This document shows, piece after piece, positions 50,221 through 54,062 of a stretch of DNA of 64,000 nucleotides. The DNA is taken from NCBI RefSeq assembly GCF_008710285.1, contig NZ_VYQF01000001.1:1559501-1623500 (forward strand). The letters run 5' to 3'. The translations under genes and the position numbers were made by a program. Source of the stretch: Ginsengibacter hankyongi. GTDB taxonomy: Bacteria; Bacteroidota; Bacteroidia; Chitinophagales; Chitinophagaceae. Below the pieces are notes generated by a model. The model did no database searches and was not told where the DNA came from. It saw nothing but the letters and a program-made list of their open reading frames with translations. Every line of letters starts with the position of its first letter. Positions within the stretch are counted from its first letter, which is position 1.

Positions 50221-51090
50221 GTGAATAAAACACTGCAATCAACACTGCAATTACTGCGTTTTCATTTCTCATTTTTTTTAATGCCGGTTTATTTCTTTGC
50301 ATTAAGCCAGGTTAATCATATTAACTGGTACAGTGCAGCATTAGTATTCGTAATACTTCATTTGCTGGTGTATCCCGCAAGCAATGGTTACAATAGTTAT
50401 ATGGACAGGGATACATCCCCGGTAGGTGGCATAAAAAATCCCCTTCAGCCAACCAAACAATTATTTATTGTTACTGTTTGTATGGATATAACGGCTGTGG
50501 TTTTAAGTTTCTTTGTTTCGGGGTTATTTGCTATAGGAATTCTTTTGTACATCCTGGCATCGAGAGCATACAGTTATAGAAAGATTCGCTTAAAAAAATA
50601 TCCCGTTACCGGTTATTTGACTGTTATCATTTTCCAGGGAGCGGTAACTTTTTTTTTGGTGTATCATGGCGCGGATAGCAACCACGCAACAAATGTCCCC
50701 GTTATTTCTATGGTGGCATCAAGCTTACTGATAGGTGGTTTTTACCCGCTTACTCAAATCTATCAACATGAGGAAGATGTAAATGATGGCGTGAAAACAA
50801 TTAGCTATAAATTGGGTTATAAAGGAACATTTATTTTTACTGGCATCATATATGCGTTTGCTTTTTGTGCGCTTGGTTTGCAATTTTTTTTAAATCTAGA
50901 ATGGACGAGATTTTTCATTCTGCAAATCTTTATGATACCGGTGCTTGTATATTTTTTCATATGGTTTAGAAAAGTTTTAAAAAATAATAGCGAAGCTGAT
51001 TTTAAAAACACAATGCAGATGAATGTTTTAGCTTCCATATGTACTAATCTTGGTTTTATAACGATTTTAATATTACATCTTATTGAGTAA
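50221..51090 (+). CDS. UbiA-type prenyltransferase family membrane protein
   Basis: A 289-residue membrane protein with about eight transmembrane helices, starting GTG. The first aspartate-rich motif is degenerate: N55-GYNSYM-D62-R-D64 in place of NDxxDxxxD. The second motif region reads YQHEEDVNDG (Y181-G190) and keeps several acidic residues. UbiA enzymes attach isoprenoid chains to aromatic or other acceptors in the membrane. Whether this one is catalytic is uncertain. It is the first gene of an operon with a type III polyketide synthase, overlapping it by 8 bases. Confidence 0.85.
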   Translation: MNKTLQSTLQLLRFHFSFFLMPVYFFALSQVNHINWYSAALVFVILHLLVYPASNGYNSYMDRDTSPVGGIKNPLQPTKQLFIVTVCMDITAVVLSFFVSGLFAIGILLYILASRAYSYRKIRLKKYPVTGYLTVIIFQGAVTFFLVYHGADSNHATNVPVISMVASSLLIGGFYPLTQIYQHEEDVNDGVKTISYKLGYKGTFIFTGIIYAFAFCALGLQFFLNLEWTRFFILQIFMIPVLVYFFIWFRKVLKNNSEADFKNTMQMNVLASICTNLGFITILILHLIE

Positions 51091-52180
51091 AATAATTTCC
51101 ATAGCTACATCGGTTCCTTCTTACAGGCACGATCAAAAGAACATTTTATCTTTTATGCAGAATGTGTATGCTATGGATGAAGCGGATAAACGCAAACTCA
51201 AATTTTTATATAATCAAAGCGCTATTGAAACAAGATATTCTGTATTACCGGATTATAGTTTAAACGCTGGTGAATGGCAATTTTATCCCGCTACCGAAAA
51301 CCTGGAACCCTTTCCAAATGTTGAGCTGCGGATGAAATGGTTTAATAAAACTGCGCCTGCTCTTGCCGTAAACGCTGTTGAAAAATGCGTTGAAAATAAA
51401 ATAGCCAAAGAAGAAATAACCCATTTAATTACCGTGAGCTGTACCGGTTTAAGTGCGCCAGGTCTTGATTTGCAGGTGATAGAAGCAATGAATTTATCAC
51501 CCAATATTTTCAGAACGTCTGTAAATTTTATGGGATGTTATGCCGCGATACATGGCCTTAAATTGGCCGATGCATTTTGTAACCAGGATAAAAATGCCAG
51601 GGTGCTGGTTGTTTGTACAGAGCTGTGCACATTGCACTTCCAAAAAGAAAATACAACAGATAATATTGCATCCAGCCTCTTGTTTGGAGACGGAAGCGCC
51701 GCGGTATTGGTTACCCATAATACTTATAAAGATGAAGGATTAAGAATAAATAATTTTTACAGCGAAGTGGCTTTTAAAGGAAAGAAAGATATGAGTTGGG
51801 AACTTTCTTCTTCAGGTTTTTTGATGACCTTATCGGGATATGTGCCGGATCTTATCGAAGAAGATTTTAATAAGCTTCTTACCAATGCTTTGGAAAATGC
51901 TGATTGCAATAAAGAAGATATTTCTCACTGGTGTATTCATCCCGGTGGTAAAAGAATTCTTACTTCCATTGAAAAAAGCATTGATATAAAAACAGAAGAC
52001 CTGCAATACTCTTATAATGTTTTGAAAAATTATGGTAACATGTCTTCACCAACCATTTTATTTGTATTAAAAGAAATAATGGAATCTCTGAAAGAGAAAA
52101 AAGAAAAGAAAGCAAATATTTTTGGTGCCGCATTTGGACCCGGTCTTACGTTGGAGACATTTATTTTATCTGATGATTGA
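51083..52180 (+). CDS. Type III polyketide synthase (chalcone/stilbene synthase-like)
   Basis: A 365-residue protein starting at TTG 51083. The thiolase-fold residues are complete: catalytic Cys152 (VNFMGCYAAIHG), His286 (WCIHPGGKR) and Asn319 (NYGNMSSPTI). The GxGPG-like end reads GAAFGPGLTLE. It condenses a starter acyl-CoA with malonyl-CoA units, giving resorcinol, phloroglucinol or pyrone products. Starter and product cannot be deduced. It overlaps the UbiA-type gene and the methyltransferase gene by 8 bases each, so expression is coupled. Confidence 0.93.
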   Translation: MSKIISIATSVPSYRHDQKNILSFMQNVYAMDEADKRKLKFLYNQSAIETRYSVLPDYSLNAGEWQFYPATENLEPFPNVELRMKWFNKTAPALAVNAVEKCVENKIAKEEITHLITVSCTGLSAPGLDLQVIEAMNLSPNIFRTSVNFMGCYAAIHGLKLADAFCNQDKNARVLVVCTELCTLHFQKENTTDNIASSLLFGDGSAAVLVTHNTYKDEGLRINNFYSEVAFKGKKDMSWELSSSGFLMTLSGYVPDLIEEDFNKLLTNALENADCNKEDISHWCIHPGGKRILTSIEKSIDIKTEDLQYSYNVLKNYGNMSSPTILFVLKEIMESLKEKKEKKANIFGAAFGPGLTLETFILSDD

Positions 52181-52883
52181 TTACAGCCATCGTTCATACA
52201 AAAAAGAATTGCTTGATAGTAGCGCCATTCCTTTTAAGGATATAGCTGAAAATATGAGAGAGCTTGATTTAATTAATGCTCATCTTGGCGGCCATGCAAT
52301 AACTGTAAAAGGATTTCAAAAGCTCATGGGTAACAATAAAAAAATTTCTGCCTGCGAAATAGGCTGCGGTGGCGGTGATAATATAAATGCACTTGCTGCA
52401 TTTTGCATAAAAAATAAAATTGAAGCAACATTCACCGGAATTGATATTAATGCGGATTGTATCGTTTTTGCAAAAGAAAAATCAACCTATAAAAATGTAA
52501 ATTTTATAGTATCCGATTACATGCTTTTTAATTTCGGGAATAATAAACCCGATATAATTTTTTCTTCACTTTTCTGTCATCATTTCACCGATGATGAACT
52601 CGTGGAAATGCTTCAATGGATGAAGACAAATTCAACAACGGGATTTTTTATTAATGATTTACACCGGCATCCACTGGCTTACCATTCTATAAAATATATT
52701 ACAAAGCTTTTTTCTAAATCCTTTCTTGTAAAAAATGATGCGCCGCTGTCGGTACTCAGAGGATTTAAAAAAACAGAATGGAAAAATATTTTTGAAAAAG
52801 CTGGAATTACCAACTATCATATTCAATGGAAATGGGCATTTAGGTATTTAATAACCGTTCTTCACCAGGAAGGGGAAAAATAA
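52173..52883 (+). CDS. Class I SAM-dependent methyltransferase
   Basis: A 236-residue protein from ATG 52173. Longer in-frame starts exist, but this ATG begins 8 bases before the polyketide synthase stop, mirroring the overlap before it. The SAM-binding motif I is SACEIGCGGGDNINAL (residues about 58-73), with GIDINADCI as motif II and the IIFSSLFCHHFTDDE region beyond. It is probably a tailoring enzyme for the polyketide product, an O- or C-methyltransferase. Confidence 0.9.
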   Translation: MIDYSHRSYKKELLDSSAIPFKDIAENMRELDLINAHLGGHAITVKGFQKLMGNNKKISACEIGCGGGDNINALAAFCIKNKIEATFTGIDINADCIVFAKEKSTYKNVNFIVSDYMLFNFGNNKPDIIFSSLFCHHFTDDELVEMLQWMKTNSTTGFFINDLHRHPLAYHSIKYITKLFSKSFLVKNDAPLSVLRGFKKTEWKNIFEKAGITNYHIQWKWAFRYLITVLHQEGEK

Positions 52884-52895
52884 TTCGTTAATAAA

Positions 52896-54062
52896 TTGGC
52901 CGAGTTTAACACAAATAAAAGTCTACATTCCGGTTCAAAGAAATTTGATGTAGGTATTGTTGGCGGCGGACTTGCCGGGCTTTCTCTTTCAACATTGTTA
53001 GCTAAAAATAATTGTAAAGTAATTTTATTTGAGAAGGAAAAATATCCTTTTCATCGGGTGTGCGGCGAATACATTAGTCTTGAAAGCTGGAAGTTTATTG
53101 AAAGCTTAGGCCTCAATCTTTCAGAACTTAATTTGCCTATTATAAAAAAATTAATTGTTTCTTCTCCTAACGGAACGTCCATACACGCAAACCTTGATTT
53201 AGGCGGTTTCGGCATAAGCCGTTTTTTTATAGATAATGAATTAAAAAAAATAGCCCTTGAAAATGGTGTACTTGTTTTGGATGAAACAAAAGTGAGTGAC
53301 GTTACTTTTAGCGATGAGTTTTTTAATATTAAATATAAAAATGAAACAGCTAATTGTGCTGTTGCTGTCGGCAGTTTTGGTAAGCGAAGCAACCTTGATG
53401 TAAAATGGTCGAGGGATTTTATACAAAAAAAACCAGGAAAGCTTAATAATTATATTGGTGTGAAATATCATATTAAAACCTCGTTCCCCTTTGATACGAT
53501 TGCTTTGCACAATTTTAAAAATGGCTACTGTGGCATTTCGAAAGTGGAAGGAGATGAATATTGCCTATGTTATTTAACCACCGCAAAAAACCTGAAGGAT
53601 AATAATTCTATCAAAGAAATGGAGCAAAATGTTTTGTATAAAAATCCTTTTCTAAAAAAAATATTTACTGACGCAGAATTTATTTTTAAAGAGCCTGTAA
53701 CTATCTCTCAAATTAGTTTTGATAGAAAGACACTCGTTGAAAATCATGTTCTAATGATTGGCGATGCAGCCGGAATGATAACACCGCTTTGTGGCAATGG
53801 AATGAGCATGGCGCTTCATTCAGCAAAAATTGCGTCAGGAAATATCCTGGCTTTTTTTGGCAGGCAAATTTCAAGAGATCAAATGGAAAATCGATTTGTA
53901 GAAAAATGGACTAATACCTTTGAAAAAAGATTAAGAACCGGGCGCACTATACAGAAATTGTTTGGCAAAGAATTTACTACTAACCTTTTTATAAGCATGC
54001 TAAAACCTTTCCCGGCTTTACTTAACAAAATCATAAAAGCTACGCATGGGCAAGAGTTTTAG
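52896..54062 (+). CDS. FAD-dependent oxidoreductase, geranylgeranyl-reductase type
   Basis: A 388-residue protein starting TTG 52896. The FAD motif is DVGIVGGGLAGLSLSTLLA near residue 18. It continues with YPFHRVCGEYISLESW, the characteristic R-x-CGEY element. The later GDAAGMITPLCGNGMSMAL is the second FAD contact. This layout is shared by geranylgeranyl reductases and flavin hydroxylases, so it could saturate a prenyl chain or hydroxylate a polyketide ring. It is the last of four packed genes. Confidence 0.9.
   Translation: MAEFNTNKSLHSGSKKFDVGIVGGGLAGLSLSTLLAKNNCKVILFEKEKYPFHRVCGEYISLESWKFIESLGLNLSELNLPIIKKLIVSSPNGTSIHANLDLGGFGISRFFIDNELKKIALENGVLVLDETKVSDVTFSDEFFNIKYKNETANCAVAVGSFGKRSNLDVKWSRDFIQKKPGKLNNYIGVKYHIKTSFPFDTIALHNFKNGYCGISKVEGDEYCLCYLTTAKNLKDNNSIKEMEQNVLYKNPFLKKIFTDAEFIFKEPVTISQISFDRKTLVENHVLMIGDAAGMITPLCGNGMSMALHSAKIASGNILAFFGRQISRDQMENRFVEKWTNTFEKRLRTGRTIQKLFGKEFTTNLFISMLKPFPALLNKIIKATHGQEF

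Follow-up and report, generated by a model that had tools for sequence, protein, structure and literature searches.

A conserved four-gene unit of Bacteroidota with a type III polyketide synthase and a divergent UbiA-family protein: a candidate pathway to a prenylated phenolic lipid

The DNA analysed here (the window) comprises 64,000 nucleotides of Ginsengibacter hankyongi, a member of the Chitinophagaceae (NCBI RefSeq assembly GCF_008710285.1, contig NZ_VYQF01000001.1, positions 1,559,501 to 1,623,500 of the forward strand), and contains four closely spaced genes on one strand. These encode a UbiA-superfamily protein, a type III polyketide synthase (PKS), a methyltransferase (MT) dependent on S-adenosylmethionine (SAM), and an oxidoreductase dependent on flavin adenine dinucleotide (FAD):

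50221..51090, + strand: UbiA-superfamily membrane protein, putative aromatic prenyltransferase; 289 amino acids, GTG start; PF01040; non-canonical motifs N58-S-x-x-D62-x-D64 and Q182-H-x-x-D186, from the UbiA alignment
51083..52180, + strand: type III PKS; 365 amino acids, TTG start; PF00195/PF02797; triad C152/H286/N319
52173..52883, + strand: class I SAM-dependent MT; 236 amino acids, ATG start; PF13847
52896..54062, + strand: FAD-dependent oxidoreductase, probable ring hydroxylase; 388 amino acids, TTG start; PF01494; CGEY motif at 56-59

The UbiA and PKS genes overlap by 8 bases, as do the PKS and MT genes, and 12 bases separate the MT gene from the FAD gene; the open frame of the MT runs from 52122 to 52883, and the in-frame ATG at 52173 was taken as its start. 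Median junctions over the loci measured are -8, -4 and -8 bases (n=120, 116 and 111 measured junctions, from a set that includes duplicates and some loci outside the PKS clade described below). Each protein exceeds its Pfam cut-off, with 60.7 bits for UbiA (cut-off 34.2), 101.1 and 94.4 bits for Chal_sti_synt_N and Chal_sti_synt_C in the PKS (cut-off 27), 50 bits for Methyltransf_31 in the MT (cut-off 27), and 37.1 bits for FAD_binding_3 in the flavoprotein (cut-off 22). A first-pass annotation, made from the sequence alone, had reported four co-directional genes with these junctions and an intact Cys152/His286/Asn319 triad, all of which is confirmed by the list of open reading frames, the Pfam matches, and the PKS alignment.

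PKSs linked to UbiA form a single clade in a quick tree (SH-aLRT 98), holding 123 rows, 113 of which have UbiA in the same locus according to the gene calls used for the tree. The tree was built from the 166 of 182 rows kept after redundancy removal, excludes PKSs shorter than 330 amino acids, and carries SH-aLRT supports only; its deep placements are unsure because some reference branches are long. The ten clade members without UbiA in their locus include some gene-call misses (L095 and L122 do have UbiA) and four with UbiA elsewhere in the genome. Outside the clade fall other PKSs of the type known from hierridin (hid) operons, together with two further PKS types.

The first-pass annotation had read the four genes as an operon and suggested comparing operon content across relatives, and this comparison supports the reading: the order UbiA-PKS-MT-FAD is conserved on a single strand at 84 of 97 loci, which cover 97 of the 104 PKS-clade genomes in our sample of the family. 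Among the 13 exceptions, three have UbiA on the opposite strand, three have no UbiA in the locus, five show UbiA-PKS-MT, and two (L087 and L129) are discussed below. Four of the five UbiA-PKS-MT loci are short (L026, L101, L108, and L128; 3.2-6.9 kb), FAD having probably been cut off, and the UbiA gene missing from L131 (genome G144) is located elsewhere in that genome. Counted by genome, 102 of 244 family members encode both the clade PKS and UbiA, two the PKS only, one UbiA only, and 139 neither (thresholds 1e-10 for PKS and 1e-40 for UbiA); 15 of the 119 PKS-positive genomes, whose best matches have 26-36% identity and an E of 2e-42 or weaker, were not assigned to the clade, and G033 was counted within it on the basis of a 48% identical fragment. 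Loci with organism names include those of Ferruginibacter paludis, Pseudoflavitalea rhizosphaerae, and Flavihumibacter. At least six genera (g1, g12, g23, g35, g82, and g87) include genomes with both genes and genomes with neither. Since PKS and UbiA go together within each mixed genus, this pattern is a better argument for linkage than a Fisher p-value, which ignores relatedness and should not be taken at face value.

The association extends beyond the family. UbiA was matched at 1e-25 in at least 60 of 395 genomes sampled from the phylum, 26 of them strongly (E at most 1e-70) and 34 more weakly; the weaker matches all belong to family f24 and were left out of the linkage count. All 26 genomes with a strong UbiA match, seven of which belong to the same family as G. 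hankyongi, also encode the PKS. According to their coordinates, the two genes are neighbours on one strand in eight genomes and neighbours in divergent orientation in 12, while in the other six they lie apart or on different contigs; co-occurrence without adjacency speaks for one pathway. Pairwise distances of UbiA correlate with those of the PKS (r=0.83, 86 loci) and the remaining gene pairs give 0.77-0.86, all as raw values without a species-tree baseline and from a set with some near-duplicate loci. Clustering of the genes over all loci yields four large families, PKS (170 loci), MT (149), UbiA (135), and FAD (111), followed by pdhC with 28, in a collection where many loci are short and distant neighbours are therefore under-sampled. 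Taken together, the PKS tree, the co-occurrence in genomes, and the conserved order rule out chance adjacency of unrelated genes, and the four genes are a real, selected pathway unit. At L097 (6391-7809) and 16 other loci, a protein with a median of 486 residues is encoded after the operon on the same strand; the one member tested has no Pfam match.

The AlphaFold model of the UbiA protein reaches a predicted local distance difference test score (pLDDT) of 95.7, and Foldseek retrieves 16 structures with E no higher than 0.001, namely UbiA homologues, digeranylgeranylglyceryl phosphate (DGGGP) synthases, a UBIAD1 complex, and a membrane-bound PRTase, the first two kinds being the best hits. Sequence similarity to named families is slight (best NCBIfam score 27.3 bits; one PDB profile hit at 0.0017), and membership of the superfamily follows from fold and Pfam score. 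Canonical UbiA proteins carry the motifs NDxxDxxxD and DxxxD. The first of these is written NxxxDxxxD in the text excerpted from PMC4044012. N58, D62, and D64 are invariant in all 125 UbiA rows (near-duplicates included), and the complete canonical motif set is absent. We regard these proteins as a distinct clade with QHxxD in place of DxxxD, for which prenyl transfer is predicted. The genome encodes four more UbiA proteins, of which one is matched weakly and the others score best as an MqnP/UbiA-type prenyltransferase, a heme O synthase, and a geranylgeranylglycerol-phosphate transferase-like protein; three of the four align Asp at Q182, and the heme O synthase-like one aligns Ala within a gapped stretch. 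A divergent UbiA-family protein of this genome (L195, 1420-2325; C1 near 320684) aligns without the usual Asp residues of the first motif. Given that two proteins of the genome match the prenyl diphosphate synthase family, a prenyl donor should be available. Plasmids searched with UbiA gave no match at 1e-5. The UbiA proteins of family f24 (L157, 5947-6837, and L159, 5974-6831) are 29-30% identical to the UbiA protein of the window and have NSxxDxD and the Gln of the second motif in common with it; they adjoin an ArgD-like aminotransferase (one tested) and two unnamed families rather than a PKS, and the weaker matches in at least 34 phylum genomes are all from this family.

In the PKS, Cys152, His286, and Asn319 are invariant over the 30 rows of the alignment and align with residues that we take to be Cys164, His303, and Asn336 of chalcone synthase (CHS). 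Relatives of solved structure are Steely1, 4b0n, and pks18. At 17 of 20 positions, the commonest residue among the UbiA-linked PKSs is that of the PKS from a planctomycete MT-FAD-PKS operon, the mismatches being CHS positions 133, 198, and 211; two further Bacteroidota PKS types differ at pocket positions 137 and 197, among others. Ala at CHS position 137 is common to the PKS and Pks18, and presumably also to RppA. The pocket residues are consistent with hid-type enzymes and are not decisive for starter specificity, so that an alkylresorcinol-type PKS using an acyl starter is favoured by sequence comparison rather than proven. A PKS of the type of DpgA, the 3,5-dihydroxyphenylacetyl-CoA synthase, was rejected (NCBIfam NF042429, 151.7 bits against a cut-off of 425).

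Several other arrangements were seen around PKSs. At L070, L073, L077-L079, L167, L169-L171, and L181, genes in the order FAD-MT-PKS are followed by a FabA-like dehydratase and a ketosynthase, and mostly also by a short-chain dehydrogenase/reductase (SDR) and a phosphopantetheinyl transferase (one member per family tested in Pfam), which suggests a dedicated acyl starter. In a third type (L069, L071, L072, L074-L076, L080, L081, L168, and L172), the PKS lies beside an ICMT-family methyltransferase, as called from one Pfam-tested member, and the locus has no MT, FAD, or UbiA genes. The PKS-MT-hydroxylase operons of family f24 (L156, L158, L174, and L178-L180) adjoin genes for a MATE transporter and for a histidine kinase some 1,280 residues long (one member each tested), a hint at regulated export. 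Finally, the PKS of a Psychrobacter urativorans plasmid (L183) falls inside the UbiA-linked Bacteroidota clade; its placement, in which the inner fork is weakly supported, suggests transfer between phyla.

The MT scores 118 bits against NCBIfam PRK06202 (below the cut-off of 243), and its profile A4 matches each of seven MTs taken from other PKS loci for this test. For the flavoprotein, the AlphaFold model (pLDDT 87.1) retrieves flavin halogenases and monooxygenases at the top of the Foldseek list. Flavin halogenases are marked by the motif WxWxIP. They come first in both the hidden Markov model (HMM) and Foldseek searches, but this motif was not seen by eye in the alignment, and we do not claim a halogenase.

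PKS, MT, and flavoprotein also occur together without UbiA. Seven of the 16 plasmid PKS regions examined (two of the 16 carry no annotation) have annotations for all three genes, which share one strand in Deinococcus, Roseomonas, Paludisphaera, Falsirhodobacter, and Mesorhizobium but not in Psychrobacter or Sphingobium. In Microvirga an NAD-binding protein comes after PKS and MT, in Novosphingobium pentaromativorans PKS and FAD are accompanied by an MT about 2 kb away, an unannotated Paenibacillus region has MT and FAD frames downstream of the PKS, and BcsA of Rhizobium stands alone. Four Streptomyces regions (of 52 Streptomyces records) differ in content and have no annotated UbiA. Our MT and FAD profiles match the proteins from other loci that were tested, the planctomycete set included, although the Deinococcus and f24 flavoproteins match only weakly (23 and 33 bits). 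In the excerpted text of a 2024 study, 58 planctomycete operons of the PKS-MT-flavoprotein kind are reported, and the tested PKSs of these operons yield alkylresorcinols, as does HidC of the cyanobacterial hierridin operon (PMC10896814). The trio of PKS, MT, and flavoprotein is thus a widespread alkylresorcinol set of the hid type, and UbiA is what the Bacteroidota unit adds to it. The first-pass annotation had expected a phenolic lipid, which agrees with the recurrence of these sets in other phyla and with their experimental tie to alkylresorcinols in the same source (PMC10896814).

The closest precedent for the full combination, which was not named in the first-pass annotation, is the agq cluster. 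Its four genes, agqA-D, reportedly encode a type III PKS, a methyltransferase, a flavoprotein, and a UbiA protein, so that the same enzyme classes would be gathered in one cluster. The agq cluster of Actinoplanes missouriensis produces alkyl-O-dihydrogeranyl-methoxyhydroquinones (Awakawa et al., 2011, by its title), a name that implies a methoxy group, and the alkylresorcinols made by AgqA are described in the excerpt of PMC10896814 as being prenylated and hydroxylated afterwards. For agq, a membrane-bound prenyltransferase that carries out O-prenylation of a small polyketide has also been studied in vitro (PMC4044012). The likeness to agq is one of description, A. missouriensis being an actinomycete of another phylum and the Bacteroidota unit being known from genes alone. 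The combination as such is not new; new relative to agq are the phylum, the wide distribution, and the distinct UbiA clade with altered motifs.

Other systems share part of the unit. The Paludisphaera MT-FAD-PKS operon is homologous, with its PKS, MT, and flavoprotein scoring 317, 106, and 81 bits against profiles A2, A4, and A3, respectively. However, this hid-type planctomycete operon has three genes in the order MT-FAD-PKS, whereas the Bacteroidota unit is ordered UbiA-PKS-MT-FAD with UbiA added, and the likeness to hid rests on proteins of the planctomycete relative rather than on HidABC sequences. Hierridin B is hydroxylated at position 4 and O-methylated twice (PMC10896814), some cyanobacteria have the order hidC>hidA>hidB, and a hierridin-like cluster of Raphidiopsis mediterranea carries a prenyltransferase (PMC8086630; both as excerpted). 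At the losA locus of Micromonospora endolithica, a UbiA-family gene, a methyltransferase, an acyl-CoA dehydrogenase, and a type III PKS are consecutive (PMC7587189, Table 1); it differs in having the acyl-CoA dehydrogenase instead of an FAD monooxygenase-type protein, and its compounds, the loseolamycins, are alkylresorcinols (PMC7587189). In srsABC of Streptomyces griseus, alkylresorcinols of a type III PKS are oxidised on to alkylquinones, and the passage of PMC10896814 that covers this system mentions no prenyltransferase. Here, too, the likeness is by description. Plant cannabinoid and daurichromenic acid pathways likewise combine a resorcinol-type type III PKS with a UbiA aromatic prenyltransferase, but with another PKS clade and another flavoenzyme. 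On the plant side, PMC5037138 deals with orcinol synthase.

The genes, their folds and motifs, their co-occurrence, and the operon core shared with other bacteria are observed. We propose, with a probability of roughly 60%, that the four genes constitute a single short pathway whose product is a prenylated phenolic lipid, namely a methylated, ring-oxidised, and prenylated alkylresorcinol; our confidence in the exact structure of the product is low. The PKS would extend a fatty acyl starter with malonyl-CoA and close a 5-alkylresorcinol ring, which the MT would methylate at an O or C position. Ring oxidation by the flavoprotein would then give a hydroquinone-type lipid, with possible conversion to the quinone, and UbiA would attach, in the membrane, an isoprenoid from the cellular prenyl diphosphate pool. 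Each of these chemical steps, their order, the lengths of the acyl and prenyl chains, and a role of the product as a membrane or redox lipid are predictions. The first-pass annotation had raised a prenylated product as a possibility, and the near-perfect co-occurrence of UbiA and PKS now lends it support. Its overall interpretation is thus supported with respect to the operon, the phenolic lipid, and prenylation, and disfavoured where it suggests that the flavoprotein could saturate the chain.

Several observations weigh against this proposal. The third Asp of the first UbiA motif (position 66) is present in only seven of 125 rows, and QHxxD replaces DxxxD in the second, with Q182 in every row but one, which is unread (124 of 125), and H183 in 119; given these altered motifs, prenyl transfer is not certain. 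Nor is the unit always complete. L087 has UbiA and PKS only, with neither MT nor FAD in 11 kb, the MT is missing from L129, and FAD is missing from L064. Genomes G062 (98% complete) and G069 (100% complete) have PKS-MT-FAD without detected UbiA, and loss of UbiA may be tolerated. G165 has UbiA without the PKS, but this UbiA lies 551 bases from a contig start, in the direction in which a PKS is expected, and the PKS may have been cut off. The clade-member PKS of Psychrobacter has no UbiA annotated on the plasmid stretch read. At losA, the cloned fragment carries UbiA with two genes between it and the PKS, yet the compounds are called alkylresorcinols and 'prenyl' appears in the gene table only, in PMC7587189 as excerpted; the study activated the promoter of losA only (PMC7587189).

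One alternative is that UbiA does not act on the polyketide at all, the operon product being an unprenylated phenolic lipid of the hid or srs type and UbiA serving another membrane lipid or a role other than transfer. The altered metal-binding motifs, the several other bacteria with PKS, MT, and FAD together and no UbiA annotated on the stretches read, and the two family genomes without a UbiA match are all compatible with it. However, UbiA accompanies the PKS even where the genes are unlinked (6 of 26 genomes), which would be difficult to account for if the two had no product in common, and UbiA distances track the PKS as closely as those of MT and FAD do; we regard this alternative as quite improbable. 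We give even less credence to the view that the flavoprotein is a geranylgeranyl-reductase-type enzyme saturating the prenyl chain added by UbiA. Both the flavoprotein and two orthologues tested have TIGR02032, the geranylgeranyl reductase family, as their top NCBIfam family, VCGEY does not vary over 24 aligned rows, and the dihydrogeranyl group in the title of the agq paper (Awakawa et al., 2011) means that some reductase acts in agq. The TIGR02032 score is nevertheless 90.3 bits against a cut-off of 158.8, and the geranylgeranyl reductase-like 3oz2 ranks 19th in Foldseek, behind halogenases and monooxygenases, although rank is weak evidence among folds so alike. Orthologues with 40-47% identity occur in Flavobacterium-type clusters (47% for the one compared here), in genomes where this UbiA finds no match (thresholds 1e-25 in the phylum sample and 1e-40 in the family sample), and in the Deinococcus and f24 operons the slot is taken by an aromatic-ring-hydroxylase-type protein (NCBIfam for both; PF01494 at 172 bits for one f24 member). 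Because orthologues exist in genomes without this UbiA and ring hydroxylases fill the same slot elsewhere, chain saturation is disfavoured, and ring oxidation is the better reading of the flavoprotein.

It is also conceivable, though unlikely, that the PKS accepts a short starter (acetyl, malonyl, or branched short acyl-CoA) and makes a small aromatic, in which case the polyprenyl group added by UbiA would be the sole lipid tail of a true prenylquinone whose head group is a polyketide. UbiA, methyltransferase, and ring hydroxylase are together the tool set of a ubiquinone-type pathway, and the two prenyl diphosphate synthase family matches and the nearly complete UbiA-PKS linkage fit this idea as well. 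Against it, the pocket residues mostly match the PKS of a hid-type operon, of the kind that makes long-chain alkylresorcinols (PMC10896814, as excerpted), with the caveat that identical residues are not enough to set the length of the starter. We entertain with similar reserve the broader suggestion that many Bacteroidota have, in addition to menaquinone, a second redox-active membrane lipid, a polyketide-headed prenylquinone made through a new UbiA subfamily. In such a pathway, the Gln-His pair that takes the place of the first Asp of the second metal-binding motif would perhaps serve an unusual donor or O-prenylation.

Among the literature matches listed, mostly within open-access reach, no paper was recognisable by its title or abstract opening as describing the Bacteroidota unit. 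The unit is present in 102 of the 244 family genomes sampled, or about two fifths, and in genomes of several other Bacteroidota families. From this distribution we infer that the product of the prenylated alkylresorcinol pathway proposed here would be a membrane or redox lipid of an ordinary, selected kind and not a rare antibiotic. If the proposed reading is right, the unit would give lipidomics a named target and offer, for enzyme assays, a UbiA subfamily whose active site is odd.

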